A stretch of 51,604 nucleotides of DNA from Methanobacteriota archaeon. Lineage in GTDB: Archaea > Thermoplasmatota > Thermoplasmata > Methanomassiliicoccales > UBA472. The translations under genes were made by a program, and so were the position numbers. The notes under the pieces were generated by a model, which ran no database searches, was not told where the DNA came from, and saw only the letters and a list, made by a program, of their open reading frames with translations. The stretch spans positions 1 to 51,604 of the forward strand of contig JAJFUT010000039.1 of the NCBI GenBank assembly GCA_021372315.1, read 5' to 3'. This document shows, one piece after another, positions 17,007-21,864 of the stretch; position 1 is the stretch's first letter, and every line of letters begins with the position of its first letter.

Positions 17007-17978
17007 TCAGACGCCGTGCAATGGGTCCCCGTCGAAATGAAGCTCCTTCTCTCCATTGTATATCGCGCACGCGGGCTGCTCGACGTCGTGGCCGTAGTGA
17101 TAGTACCATTTGGCGCAAAGCCAGCGCTGCAGCGTGTTCAGGTCGTCGTTGTCCATGTGCCTGAACCGACCCTGCATATGGAGATATTCGGTCACGGGCC
17201 TCATCGTGTGGGGCTTGTACGTCGACCTCGCCTCGCCTTCCTCGTACTCGAACAGCGTCCACATGCCTGTCTCCACCGCCAGCTTCGCGATCTCTACGCT
17301 CTTCGACGCCTCCGTCCTCCATCCCGGGACGCAGGGTGTCAGCACGTGGAGGAACCGGAATCCGCTCTTGTGCTTCGCCTTCTCGACCTTCCTGATGAAG
17401 TCGTTGTAATGCGCGATCGACAGCGTCGCCGCGTACTCTGGGTCGTGTGCGATGACCAGGTCCATGACGTCCTTCTTCATCTGCCTCTTGCCCTGGGTGA
17501 CCTTACCGACCGGCGTCGTCGTTGTCCAGGCCCCGAAAGGCGTCGAGCCCGACCTCTGGATGCCGGTGTTCATGTACGCCTCGTTGTCCACGCAGATGTA
17601 GAGGACGTCCTCCTGCCTCTCCGCGGCGCCCGATAGCGCCTGGAGCCCGATGTCGAACGTCCCACCGTCGCCGGCGATCCCGACGACCGTGCCCTCGATC
17701 CCCCTGCGCCTCTGGGCGGCCTTGATCCCCGTTATGACTGCGCCAGTGTTCTCGAAGGCGGTGAACAGCAGCGGCGTCCTGAAGGCCGACGTCGGATACA
17801 GCGCGCTGAACACTATCAGGCATGAGGCCGGCACGTAGACCGTCGTATCGCTGCCCAATATCCTCATGATGTTGTTCACGGCGATGGCGACGCCGCAGCC
17901 CGGGCATGCTCCATGTCCGCTCACGAAGTAGTCGTTGTTCGGCATCTCCTTGATGGTCGATATCTCGTCAGCGGTCAT
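17007..17978 (-). CDS. porB: Pyruvate:ferredoxin oxidoreductase beta subunit
   Basis: This 323-residue subunit binds thiamine diphosphate and an iron-sulfur cluster and catalyses reversible oxidative decarboxylation of pyruvate to acetyl-CoA with ferredoxin. GHGACPGCG holds two cluster cysteines; GDGGTFDIGLQALSGAAER is the TPP/Mg motif; VDNEAYMNTGIQRSGSTPFGAWTTTTPVGK is the stretch typical of pyruvate rather than 2-oxoglutarate enzymes. The ATG at 17978 overlaps the porA stop as ATGA, fixing the start. It is the last gene of the por operon. Confidence 0.94.
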   Translation of the reverse strand: MTADEISTIKEMPNNDYFVSGHGACPGCGVAIAVNNIMRILGSDTTVYVPASCLIVFSALYPTSAFRTPLLFTAFENTGAVITGIKAAQRRRGIEGTVVGIAGDGGTFDIGLQALSGAAERQEDVLYICVDNEAYMNTGIQRSGSTPFGAWTTTTPVGKVTQGKRQMKKDVMDLVIAHDPEYAATLSIAHYNDFIRKVEKAKHKSGFRFLHVLTPCVPGWRTEASKSVEIAKLAVETGMWTLFEYEEGEARSTYKPHTMRPVTEYLHMQGRFRHMDNDDLNTLQRWLCAKWYYHYGHDVEQPACAIYNGEKELHFDGDPLHGV

Positions 17979-19150
17979 CCCTTCGCCTCCCTGAGCCCGT
18001 GCCAGTAAACCCTCTTGACCTTCCCTTCCTCGACGCTCGCCTCGATGAGCGAAAAGACCTTCCTCATGTCGCGGACGGTGATGTCCCTTCCGCCCAGCCC
18101 CCCGATGTGGTCCGTGATAGGGACCCCTGAGCCGCACAGTGAGCCGCTCACCTCGGTGAACACGGGGCCGTAGCGGTTGAAGCTGACCGAGCGATCGAAC
18201 ACACCCAGCGCCTTTAGGCCCGAGCATGCCCTTCGCAGTTCGTCGTGGGGGAACGGCCTCATGAACCTAAGCTTGATCAGCCCGACCTTCCTCCCCTCGG
18301 CCCTAAGTTCGTCGACCGCCGCGCGCGCTGTGCTGGCGGCGGTGCCTAGGACGATCAGCGCGAACTCCGCGTCGTCCATCATGTACTCGTCGATCAGACC
18401 GCCGTAACCCCTGCCGAAAGCGGCCTTGAACGCCTCGTCGACCTGATGCACGACGTTCCTGGAATCGTCCATGGCCCTATCGAGCTGGTATCTCATCTCT
18501 GTCGTGTACTCCGGCGGGACGATGGGGTTCATCATCACGGGCTCCGAAGGGTCCAATGAGGACCTGGGGACGAAGGCCGGGAGGAACGCATCGACCTCGC
18601 CCTGCTCCGGCACCTCCACCTTCTCGACAGTATGCGAGAGTATGAAACCATCCAGGCAGACCATCACCGGCAACAGGACGCGCTCGTCCTCGGCGATCCT
18701 GTAGGCCTGAAGAGTCATGTCCAGGGCCTCCTGGCTGTCCTCGACGTACACCTGCATCCATCCCGACTCTCGCTCTGGCATGGAATCATTGTGCTCGGCC
18801 CATATCCCGCCCGCCGCTCCCAGCGTGCGGTTCACGTTGACCATGACGATCGGCAACCGGTTCTGAGGTACGGCGTAGAGCATCTCGTGCATCAACGCCA
18901 GCCCCTGGGACGCGGTCGCCGTGAAGGTGCGCACCCCGCCAGCGGAGGCCCCTACGGCCACGCTCATCACGCTGTGCTCGCTCTCCGCCGGTATGAGATC
19001 GGCATCCAGCTCGCCGTTCGATATGAACTCCGCCAGGAGCTCCATTATCAGCGTCTGCGGCGTGATCGGGAACGCCGGTATGACCTCCGCCTTCGCGAGA
19101 CGGACCCCCCACGCGACGGCGTGGTCCGCGCTCAGCGCCTTCATCACCAT
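17975..19150 (-). CDS. porA: Pyruvate:ferredoxin oxidoreductase alpha subunit
   Basis: This 391-residue subunit carries the pyrimidine-binding domain and domains II and III of the oxidoreductase. Landmarks are VIPAFPITPQTLIMELLAEFI, PAESEHSVMSVAVGASAGGVRTFTATASQGLALMHEML and a C-terminal LIKLRFMRPFP. The start is either ATG 19150 or ATG 19144; the first has GGGGGTG 5 bases upstream and is preferred. Its start overlaps the stop of the fused gamma-delta gene and its stop overlaps porB, so translation is probably coupled. Confidence 0.93.
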   Translation of the reverse strand: MVMKALSADHAVAWGVRLAKAEVIPAFPITPQTLIMELLAEFISNGELDADLIPAESEHSVMSVAVGASAGGVRTFTATASQGLALMHEMLYAVPQNRLPIVMVNVNRTLGAAGGIWAEHNDSMPERESGWMQVYVEDSQEALDMTLQAYRIAEDERVLLPVMVCLDGFILSHTVEKVEVPEQGEVDAFLPAFVPRSSLDPSEPVMMNPIVPPEYTTEMRYQLDRAMDDSRNVVHQVDEAFKAAFGRGYGGLIDEYMMDDAEFALIVLGTAASTARAAVDELRAEGRKVGLIKLRFMRPFPHDELRRACSGLKALGVFDRSVSFNRYGPVFTEVSGSLCGSGVPITDHIGGLGGRDITVRDMRKVFSLIEASVEEGKVKRVYWHGLREAKG

Positions 19151-20055
19151 TCGTGCACCCCCTTCACCATATCGATTGCGTCCACGGGGCACACGTCCGC
19201 GCATATCCCGCAGCCCTTGCAGTAACGGTAGTCCACCTTGACGTGGTCGTCCTCGAGGCGCTTGATGCATACGTCCGGGCAGGTGAACCAGCATCTTAGA
19301 CATCGAATGCATTTCTCGCGGTCGTACTTGGGCGACGAGGTTCGCCATGTCCCGGTCATGTTCTGTATCGACGATCCGGGTCCGACGGCCACACCTTCGA
19401 TGTGCTCGGGCTCCAGCGCGACGCCGGTCGGCACCTCGTCCCATTCCGGAAGCCACATCCTCCTCTGGACGATGGATCTTGCGCCAAGGCATCTGCCTTC
19501 CTTCGTACCGTCATATGCCAATTGCGCTGCCAGGACGTTCGCCTCCGCCGCCCTTGGTCCCAGCTTCTCGCCGAACCGGTCAGCGATGGCCTTCTGAATA
19601 TTCTCTAAAGTGACGAGGTCCAGCACCTTGGCCACTGCGCCGAGCATCGCGGTGTTGACAACGGGCGCCTTCAGCGCCTCGATCGCCACCGACGTCGCGT
19701 CCACCGTCGCGCATCGCACCGACACCCCGATGTCCAGCTCGGACGGGGCCTTCCTCGTGTTCACGACCGCCGAGCCGTTGGACCTCAGCCCGTCGACGAC
19801 GGGGTCTATTTCCAGAAGGGTCTCGTCGAGGATGACGACCATGTCCGGCTCGTAGATCTGGGACCGGATCGATATCCTCTTGTCATCGATCCTGGTGAAG
19901 GCGCGCACCGGCGCCCCTCTGCGCTCCGCCCCGAAATACGGGAACGCCTGGGCGTGATGCCCTCCGAGGATGGCCGCCTCGGCCAAGGTCTGCGCGGCCA
20001 TGACGGCTCCCTGCCCGCCCCTTCCGTGGAATCGAACCTCGTACAAATCAATCAC
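19144..20055 (-). CDS. porG: Pyruvate:ferredoxin oxidoreductase fused gamma-delta subunit
   Basis: This 303-residue protein joins PorG (about residues 1-190, starting EVRFHGRGGQGAVMAAQTLAEAAI) to the ferredoxin-like PorD (about 195-303). PorD has two 4Fe-4S motifs, CIRCLRCWFTCP and CKGCGICADVCP, which carry electrons to external ferredoxin. In many archaea porG and porD are separate adjacent genes; here no stop lies between them. The GTG at 20055 is near the expected transcription start; a TTG three codons later with GGTGAT upstream is an alternative. The operon order is porGD-porA-porB. Confidence 0.9.
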   Translation of the reverse strand: MIDLYEVRFHGRGGQGAVMAAQTLAEAAILGGHHAQAFPYFGAERRGAPVRAFTRIDDKRISIRSQIYEPDMVVILDETLLEIDPVVDGLRSNGSAVVNTRKAPSELDIGVSVRCATVDATSVAIEALKAPVVNTAMLGAVAKVLDLVTLENIQKAIADRFGEKLGPRAAEANVLAAQLAYDGTKEGRCLGARSIVQRRMWLPEWDEVPTGVALEPEHIEGVAVGPGSSIQNMTGTWRTSSPKYDREKCIRCLRCWFTCPDVCIKRLEDDHVKVDYRYCKGCGICADVCPVDAIDMVKGVHEW

Positions 20056-20146: not shown

Positions 20147-21070
20147 TCAGACCAGGTCGAGCCAGGCCTTGTACTTCGGGTTCTTGCCCTTGACGATGTC
20201 CGAGAAGGTGCTCTGAAGGGCCTTCGTGACCTCGCCGGCCTTGCCCTTTCCGATCTGGATGTCATCGATGGTCCCGATCGGTGTGACCTCCGCCGCGGTA
20301 CCGGTGAAGAAGGCCTCGTCCGCGAGGAACAGCTCGGACCTGGTGATCGGTCTTTCCTCGACGATGTATCCAAGGTCCTTGGCGACGATCATGATGCTGT
20401 CCTTCGTTATGCCTTCCAGGATGCCCGACGCAAGGTCCGGCGTGACCAGCTTTCCCTTCCTGACCATGAAGATGTTCTCCCCGGTGCCCTCGGCGACGGT
20501 CCCGTTGGAGTTCAGCATCAGCGCCTCGTCGGCCCCCCTGCTGTTCGCCTCCATCCTTGCCACGACGGAGTTGATGTAGTTGCCGTTGATCTTGGCGTTC
20601 AGCATCGCCGCCCTGTTGGACGGCTTCTCCCAGCTGGACGTGATGACCTTGGCGCCGTGCTCGAGCTGGTCCGCTCCGACGTACGCTCCCATGTGCGTGC
20701 AGGCGATGATCACGTTGGTCGGGTTCTTCTCGGTGCTCAGACCGATGTTGCCGGCCGGGTTCATTCCGTAGAATGCGAGCGGCCGGAGATAGTCGCCGTC
20801 CGCAGGGGCGGTCCTGACGACCACCCTGCACGCCTCGCACAGCTCGTCCAGTGTGTAGGGTATCTTTAACGATATGACCTTCGCTGAGCTGAGGAAGCGC
20901 ATCATGTGCTCCCTGAGCCTGAATATCGCCCGCCCCTGCTCGGTCTCGTATACCCTGATCCCTTCGAACACCCCGCTTCCGTAGTGGAGCCCGTGGGCCA
21001 GCACATGGACGCTCGCCTTTTCGAAATCGACGAGCTTCCCGTCCATCCATATCTTGGAATCGTTTGTCAT
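20147..21070 (-). CDS. ilvE: Branched-chain amino acid aminotransferase
   Basis: This 307-residue fold-type IV PLP enzyme interconverts Leu, Ile and Val with their 2-oxo acids. Landmarks are KIWMDGKLVDFEKASVHVLAHGLHYGSGVFEGIRVYET, the PLP lysine region AMLNAKINGNYINSVVARMEA, and EGTGENIFMVRKGKLVTP with EGITKDSIM. Length and pattern fit the archaeal/bacterial IlvE group. ATG 21070 has GAAGGTG six bases upstream; a GTG at 21079 is less likely. It follows ilvN by 11 bases, so the two are in one operon. Confidence 0.94.
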   Translation of the reverse strand: MTNDSKIWMDGKLVDFEKASVHVLAHGLHYGSGVFEGIRVYETEQGRAIFRLREHMMRFLSSAKVISLKIPYTLDELCEACRVVVRTAPADGDYLRPLAFYGMNPAGNIGLSTEKNPTNVIIACTHMGAYVGADQLEHGAKVITSSWEKPSNRAAMLNAKINGNYINSVVARMEANSRGADEALMLNSNGTVAEGTGENIFMVRKGKLVTPDLASGILEGITKDSIMIVAKDLGYIVEERPITRSELFLADEAFFTGTAAEVTPIGTIDDIQIGKGKAGEVTKALQSTFSDIVKGKNPKYKAWLDLV

Positions 21071-21081
21071 TGACAGCACCT

Positions 21082-21447
21082 TCAGATCGCGTTGATCGCC
21101 TTCACGAACTTTTCCGGCTTGTACGCATCGATCAATGCGTCCACCTCCTCGGTGGAGCCGATGAGCCTGGCCTTTCCGTTCGTGTTGCTGATTAGCGCAT
21201 ACGCCTCGTGCCTTGAGGGGTCCAATATCTCGATCGAGATGATGTCATGCACCCTCTGCTTAAGCGCGCTAACGCTGGACTCCGCGTCCGCACGGTCGTT
21301 CACTCCAAGAACGACCCTGGCCTTTCCGGGGATCTCACATTTTCCGACGACGATCGTCTCGATGTTGATCTTTCTCCTTGTGAACTCGCCTACGATCCTC
21401 TGCATCACGCCGAACTCGTCGTTAACGACCATCGATACGACTTCCAT
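21082..21447 (-). CDS. ilvN: ACT-domain protein, acetolactate synthase small-subunit type
   Basis: This 121-residue protein starts with an ACT domain close to IlvN/IlvH (VSMVVNDEFGVMQRIVGEFTRRKINIETIVVG), the regulatory subunit that lets valine inhibit acetolactate synthase. The second half is short, without most of the usual C-terminal domain of IlvN (about 160 residues). GGAGGTG upstream of ATG 21447 decides the start. No catalytic ilvB is in the window. It sits between an unknown small ORF and ilvE, so it may act on a distant IlvB or serve as a separate sensor. Confidence 0.82.
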   Translation of the reverse strand: MEVVSMVVNDEFGVMQRIVGEFTRRKINIETIVVGKCEIPGKARVVLGVNDRADAESSVSALKQRVHDIISIEILDPSRHEAYALISNTNGKARLIGSTEEVDALIDAYKPEKFVKAINAI

Positions 21448-21467: not shown

Positions 21468-21704
21468 CTACTTCTTCCTGCTCTTGCTGGTTTCCTCGTA
21501 GTTCTTCATCGTGTGCAGCTTCTTTATCGGAGAGTAATAACCCTCGTCGTCCTTGCCGTTGTCGATGCCCTTCGGATATTTCGGCGTCGAGTTCCACGCT
21601 ACCTGGAACTGCGAGCTCGGATCGCCGTCGTCCATGAGCTTCTTTGGCTTCGTCCTTGCTCCGCCCCCGACGAGGCACCTTGTTACCAACCAAGAGACCA
21701 GCAT
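21468..21704 (-). CDS. Unrecognised small protein upstream of ilvN
   Basis: This 78-residue ORF starts at an ATG that overlaps the TAA of the leader ORF (TAATG) and ends in TAG 20 bases before ilvN. Its first 12 residues are MLVSWLVTRCLV, rich in Leu and Val; the rest is hydrophilic, with KYPKGIDNG and DDEGYYSPIKK, and ends in a basic tail. The latter part uses the GC-rich third positions of the host, which supports coding, whereas the first dozen codons include rarer ones (TCT, TTG, GTA, ACA). A start at an internal ATG (21635) is possible but has no ribosome site. No family is recognised. Confidence 0.5.
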   Translation of the reverse strand: MLVSWLVTRCLVGGGARTKPKKLMDDGDPSSQFQVAWNSTPKYPKGIDNGKDDEGYYSPIKKLHTMKNYEETSKSRKK

Positions 21705-21751
21705 TAGCATCCACTACCCATCAGTTTCATTCCACAAAGGAGGTCGCTCAC
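21704..21751 (-). CDS. Candidate 15-codon leader ORF of the ilv operon
   Basis: GTG at 21751 is preceded by GGAGGTG (21763-21757) at a spacing of 5 bases, the best ribosome site in the window. The ORF reads MSDLLCGMKLMGSGC and stops at TAA, which overlaps the next ATG. Three of its 15 codons are Leu (CTC, CTT, CTG). The ribosome site lies in the 5' arm of a hairpin whose 3' arm is inside this ORF. It could be a regulatory leader peptide; no expression evidence exists here. Confidence 0.45.
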   Translation of the reverse strand: MSDLLCGMKLMGSGC

Positions 21752-21837
21752 CGAGCCACCTCCCCTTTCAAATAACAAGCTGCCCGCTAACATAGACGAC
21801 AATGACAGACCGCGGGGCAGCGCTGCACATAGCGGGC
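21704..21837 (-). promoter_or_regulatory. Structured leader upstream of the ilvN-ilvE operon
   Basis: Between the TATA box and the small ORF the minus strand holds three symmetric elements. The outer arms GCCCGCTA (21837-21830) and TAGCGGGC (21789-21782) are perfect 8-base complements. Inside them is the palindrome GCAGCGCTGC (21826-21817). A separate hairpin (21763-21739) pairs GGAGGT with ACCTCC and GCTC with GAGC around a 3-base loop, enclosing the ribosome site and GTG of the leader ORF. The first arm falls close to the predicted transcription start, so it may act in DNA or in RNA. Confidence 0.45.
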
Positions 21838-21854
21838 GATTGTATCGGGACGAG

Positions 21855-21864
21855 CATATTTAAG
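21855..21864 (-). promoter_or_regulatory. TATA box for the ilv leader
   Basis: CTTAAATATG on the minus strand predicts a start near 21834, leaving a leader of about 80 bases to the leader ORF and 130 to the next ORF. Confidence 0.5.

Follow-up and report, generated by a model that had tools for sequence, protein, structure and literature searches.

A candidate leader-peptide switch before the acetolactate synthase genes of Methanomassiliicoccales archaea

Results

The window, by which we mean the whole stretch of 51,604 nucleotides that was analysed, is a contig of a 1.75-Mb genome whose family (f1) would be the Methanomassiliicoccaceae, judging from the named relatives that share the locus, which belong to the Methanomassiliicoccaceae and Methanomassiliicoccales. 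A TATA box, a short leader ORF and two hairpins stand before an 80-aa ORF, ilvN and ilvE (Table 1), and both the TATA box and this gene order agree with an earlier sequence-only reading of the same DNA. The 2-oxoacid:ferredoxin oxidoreductase genes that follow are likely the remainder of the ilv operon, its extent being judged from gene order and strand. The 80-aa ORF was found in 15 of 61 relatives (L001-L015), between the leader and ilvN and only in genera g1-g4; its product is basic, with a hydrophobic N-terminus and the core GGGxRxKPKKLM..STPKYPxGxDNGRDDEGYxxPIKK, and profile searches of Pfam and NCBIfam gave no match to it. The genes of a polar amino acid ABC transporter (binding protein, permease and ATPase; 24422-21909, minus strand) lie directly 5' of the leader, which they also precede in many relatives, and may be part of the same nutrient response. 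Searching the window for known riboregulator families, such as the T-box, yielded no Rfam 15 match at gathering thresholds.

Table 1 Features of the ilv locus in the window
Feature	Position	Strand	Evidence and remarks
TATA box TTAAATA	21857-21863	minus	Sequence; centre 30 nt 5' of leader start (26-28 nt in most relatives)
Leader ORF MCSAAPRSVIVVYVSGQLVI	21768-21830	minus	V/I/L run SVIVVYV; terminal LVI directly before TGA
Hairpin 1	21775-21826	minus	21826-21812 (leader codons 2-7) pairs with 21787-21775 (codons 15-19); fold and co-adaptation
Hairpin 2 GGGAGGTGGCTCGGTGAGCGACCTCCT	21738-21764	minus	Begins 3 nt past leader stop codon; fold z and compensatory changes
15-codon GTG ORF MSDLLCGMKLMGSGC	21704-21751	minus	Proposed by the sequence-only reading; judged non-functional; lost in G002 and other genera
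80-aa small ORF	21468-21710	minus	Opens the operon in genera g1-g4
ilvN, acetolactate synthase small subunit, regulatory ACT domain	21082-21447	minus	PF22629; TIGR00119 partial
ilvE, branched-chain amino acid transaminase	20147-21079	minus	TIGR01122 and NF005146 above cut-off
2-oxoacid:ferredoxin oxidoreductase genes (gamma/delta, alpha, beta)	17007-20055	minus	TIGR02175, TIGR02179, PF01855

The sequence-only reading had proposed that a peptide encoded by the GTG ORF controls the operon. In the window the parts that it named are all present: the ribosome site GGAGGTG (21763-21757) lies in the hairpin, 5 nt before the GTG (21751-21749), and the TAA of the ORF overlaps an ATG. However, conservation fails at each of these points. 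The congener G002 has GAG in place of the GTG and a TGA that breaks the frame, alignment of the locus across f1 revealed no counterpart of the ORF in other genera, only genera g1 and g3 have a perfect ribosome site within the hairpin, and the TAATG overlap is not kept in relatives. The conserved ORF is the one just upstream (Table 1), which was absent from the list of that reading and whose stop codon is directly 5' of the proposed hairpin.

This leader ORF precedes ilvN in all 20 readable Methanomassiliicoccaceae genomes. Other ilvN leader peptides of the family are MSFAALRSIIIVMVSGKLIV, MRSTAACKIIVLLVSERYVVI, MLSVAQTPVLIVVVEQLVLGI and MYALRISTDIVLVQRVLGI, while genera that have no 80-aa ORF encode MSSPAAWGIVLSGAVSLQVLVI and MSSLAVSPGGNSVLVSLRILVI; the C-terminal motifs QLVI, QVLVI and RVLGI recur among them. 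The layout consists of a TATA box, a near-leaderless start, 19-28 codons, a terminal Val/Ile/Leu run, a hairpin 0-3 nt after the stop, and then the ribosome site of the next gene. A family search found that ilvB, which is unlinked to ilvN, has its own leader of this kind (19 loci); in the genome of the window it encodes VSNNSTNVSAVLRLGVVVVI (L164). Such leaders also stand before ilvB in further Methanomassiliicoccales families, namely f3, f4, f5, f6 and three genera of f2, with two ilvB copies and two leaders in f5 and a leader ending in LGVVVVLIR in f6. Beyond the order, one archaeon has an ilvB leader, Euryarchaeota archaeon RBG_13_57_23 (L066). Together the ilvN and ilvB leaders make a set of 67 loci, many of them closely related and from draft genomes, so that they represent far fewer independent events, spread over six Methanomassiliicoccales families and one record from outside the order, with f1 contributing two gene contexts. 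The leader was absent in the f9 and f17 genomes examined and before most MKGSRALL-type ilvB genes in f2 (genomes L193-L197, L203-L213, L238, L247 and L248), while the ilvBN operons of three f2 genera keep it; presence and absence within f2 offer a natural comparison set. The end of the f1 ilvN leader (SLQVLVI before the stop) resembles that of the intact ilvBN operon in f3 and f5 (SVQVLVV; L222, L220-L224), which suggests that f1 lost the ilvB of an ilvBN operon and retained the leader of that operon before ilvN.

Val, Ile and Leu account for 69% of the last ten leader codons in the 67 loci, whereas the two remaining frames give 10% and 21%. Counted back from the stop, their share is 61% at -1, 81% at -2, 99% at -3 and 90% at -4; it is 70% at -9 and 79% at -10. 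Among the differences between leaders, third codon positions vary most (43%), and changed V/I/L codons remain V/I/L in 74% of cases versus 51% expected for random single changes. Judged from these substitution patterns, the leader ORF is under coding constraint. Two further observations concern particular leaders. The Asn codons (AAY AAC) at the N-terminal end of the g1 and g2 ilvB leaders (L162-L180) show complementarity to the Val/Ile control codons (GUU RUU), so that RNA pairing appears to dictate the first residues of these peptides. The stop codon is TAG in 27 of the 67 leaders (L169, L172, L173, L178, L179, L226-L246); some Methanomassiliicoccales members read UAG as pyrrolysine, and a ribosome that reads through UAG could give the switch a second input.

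The same architecture was also sought in the complete genome of the congener G002, read in stretches, as a TATA box with a short ORF, a hairpin at its stop and a long ORF behind. The top match was VSNNSTNAIVVLRLGVVVVI, before ilvB and far from ilvN, and a search blind to gene identity returned three matches, which were ilvN, ilvB and one (position 67558) that is followed by no gene on the same strand. An ORF with a run of His codons (GGCHHRHH) 5' of hisA was rejected, because it is embedded out of frame in hisH. Beyond these matches, G002 yielded no leader of this layout for Trp, His or another amino acid.

Of the 61 loci in which a box was recognised, 51 have the TATA centre 26-28 nt before the start codon. 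From this spacing, the RNA would start at or near the leader start codon; for the window the start is expected within about 4 nt of 21830, so that 21837-21831 is probably not in the RNA. This affects the two 8-base arms that had been proposed as a stem. The arms GCCCGCTA (21837-21830) and TAGCGGGC (21789-21782) are exactly complementary, but most of the upstream arm probably lies outside the RNA, and when the window leader is folded the 3' arm pairs instead with bases inside the leader ORF.

The leader region of the window folds better than shuffled sequence (z = -2.25), and two hairpins are supported, one within the leader ORF and one past its stop. Hairpin 2, which the sequence-only reading had placed at 21763-21739, has a z of -4.4 in the window, with mean z of -2.1 before ilvN and -3.4 before ilvB, versus -0.1 and -0.4 in controls. 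An automated scan of the 67 loci put its onset 0-3 nt past the stop, and in many ilvB leaders the stop is UAG, whose G can be the first stem base. That reading had also proposed covariation of both stems in relatives as a check. Hairpin 2 does show compensatory changes: in genus g2, 3 of its 8 pairs are changed on both sides, and 92% of cells pair compared with 43-79% when the arms are slid. For the other stem, the arm at 21837-21830 is replaced by the in-ORF partner, giving hairpin 1, whose 3' arm (codons 15-19) adjoins and partly overlaps the control codons in the window leader. Folding energy supports hairpin 1 weakly (mean z -0.7). RNAalifold on MAFFT alignments found little because the hairpins differ in length and register, and shuffles, base-anchored counts and permutation tests were therefore used. 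In a co-adaptation test of nine region pairs, which compared true partners with partners from dissimilar loci over the 67 loci, only hairpin 1 (z -1.65) and hairpin 2 (z -1.92, a value biased by the choice of hairpin 2 by fold) stood out.

The same test gave values close to zero for the control codons with the arms of hairpin 2 (z -0.20 for the 5' arm), which argues against a mutually exclusive antiterminator pairing in the 67 loci. Values were likewise near zero for the stretch past hairpin 2 when it was matched with hairpin 2 itself, with the control codons or with the start of the leader. A U-tract, as an intrinsic terminator would have, is missing after hairpin 2 in most loci; G002 has five U's directly past it. 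Two candidate couplings to the ribosome site were rejected: sequestration by the 3' arm of hairpin 2, where accessibility barely altered without the 5' arm (0.53 vs 0.47) and the pairing was not co-adapted, and pairing of the control codons with the ribosome site (mean z 0.08; 0.02 in the co-adaptation test). In a model that masks the RNA under a ribosome, with a footprint size assumed from bacterial ribosomes, hairpin 2 pairing was 0.94 with the ribosome at -4, 0.63 at -2, 0.23 at -1 and 0.04 at the stop, and accessibility of the ribosome site differed little between ribosome positions. A motif AUYG, often CAUUGU, occurs a few bases after hairpin 2 in 46 of the 67 loci, before both ilvB and ilvN, compared with 8% of control windows. 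Could it be a pause site?

Discussion

Comparison among the genomes establishes the leader ORF, its codon content, the hairpins, their geometry and the association with ilv genes. Taken together, these features strongly support ribosome-sensed leader-peptide control of the ilv genes. The core idea of the sequence-only reading, a peptide-controlled leader of an archaeal ilv operon, is thus strongly supported, but through another ORF. We consider it very probable that the leaders form a branched-chain-amino-acid-sensing switch in archaea, which tunes acetolactate synthase through the position of the ribosome on the leader. From the established features we infer the near-leaderless start, the stalling, the direction of the response, in which starvation would raise expression, and the output.

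The switch may work as follows. The promoter would give an RNA whose 5' end falls on the start codon or a few bases from it, and a peptide of 19-28 residues would be translated first. The ribosome on the leader would sense the supply of charged Val, Ile and Leu tRNAs. With a good supply it would reach the stop codon and cover the 5' arm of hairpin 2, and with a short supply it would wait at the control codons (V/I/L is most constant at -3 and -4), holding hairpin 1 open and leaving hairpin 2 closed. The position of the ribosome would in this way be converted into RNA structure just before the first structural gene, and ilvB and, separately, ilvN-ilvE would be tuned to demand. As output, our best guess is that the structural gene is controlled in its translation or early elongation. 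Intrinsic termination is disfavoured because hairpin 2 has no U-tract. Several observations speak against the model: hairpin 2 has no conserved alternative pairing to the ribosome site or to the control codons that would account for the output step, the modelled accessibility of the ribosome site hardly depends on where the ribosome stands, many of the loci come from closely related drafts, and most MKGSRALL-type ilvB genes of f2 have no leader.

The best-surviving alternative is a textbook transcription attenuator, with hairpin 2 as intrinsic terminator and an antiterminator that would be favoured when the ribosome stalls at the control codons. The logic of the leader and the class of genes are those of bacterial ilv attenuators, hairpin 2 comes immediately past the leader, and the five U's of G002 would fit a terminator. 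Yet archaeal intrinsic termination has been reported at poly(U) (PMC8116511), which most of the loci lack, and the control codons and the 5' arm of hairpin 2 are not co-adapted; we regard this explanation as unlikely. We give still less credit to ligand-dependent arrest by the nascent peptide, in which free amino acids, and not hungry codons, would make the hydrophobic peptide itself stall the ribosome at the stop or close to it. The recurring C-terminal motifs of the ilvN leaders speak for it, but the peptide sequence differs widely among genera while the V/I/L class is constant, as codon sensing predicts. It is also very improbable that the ORF is a small functional hydrophobic protein merely accompanying the ilv genes: coding constraint with the most variation at third positions would be expected of such a protein, but conservation is confined to the V/I/L class near the stop and to the neighbouring hairpin, and two subunits of one enzyme have two dissimilar leaders. 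Control by the GTG ORF, with a ribosome site in the hairpin and TAATG coupling, is hardly credible, for although the window genome has every feature and the congener L003 a similar overlap near the small-ORF start, the arrangement is kept neither in G002, of the same genus, nor in other genera, and the hairpin of genus g2 contains no ribosome site.

In the trp and ilv attenuators of Enterobacteria, the ribosome on a leader rich in cognate codons sets the RNA structure, and at the stop it covers the next RNA segment. The archaeal leaders appear similar in that a short leader ORF stands behind its own promoter and is enriched in codons for the end products of the pathway, and a ribosome at its stop would cover the next segment. 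They differ in having no detectable mutually exclusive terminator and antiterminator pairings, and, in most loci, no U-tract after the hairpin. Candidate ilvB leader peptides have been described in Actinobacteria, where V/I/L codons overlap terminator hairpins with poly-U (PMC1262725), and Corynebacterium glutamicum has an ilvBNC attenuator (PMC11857589); for C. glutamicum, the title of a paper cited in PMC13158618 also reports a leader peptide that is made without a ribosome site. These systems share with ours a short ORF with runs of Ile/Val/Leu codons before ilvB, the run lying at or beside a hairpin. However, their hairpins are followed by poly-U and read as terminators, whereas the archaeal leaders have no U-tract; the host here is an archaeon, and ilvN has a separate leader too. 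The LEU element of actinobacterial leuA, in which Leu codons pair with the ribosome site (PMC1262725), likewise places control codons in a leader ORF, together with RNA structure, ahead of a gene for branched-chain amino acids, with no obvious terminator, but in the archaeal loci the pairing of control codons with the ribosome site is no better than chance. We found no described case of archaeal leader-peptide attenuation in the open-access literature; a Ribo-seq study of Methanosarcina mazei reports uORFs in a general way, and searching its text by terms turned up no reference to attenuation.

Translated leader-peptide attenuation is a classic form of bacterial gene control, and in the open-access literature we found it described only there. 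What we see here is probably archaeal control by ribosome position with a non-bacterial layout: a near-leaderless mRNA, a hairpin formed from early and late leader codons, a second hairpin flush with the stop, and neither U-tract nor antiterminator, used in parallel at unlinked genes of one enzyme and kept across several families of a methanogen order. A layout that does without the bacterial terminator and antiterminator may be a new way of reading the position of the ribosome. Two leaders per genome, their absence in some relatives and an apparent gene loss with the leader kept make the system readily testable. If the switch operates as proposed, it would provide a natural assay for transcription-translation coupling in archaea, and it would mean that archaea sense amino acids through the ribosome on a leader RNA.
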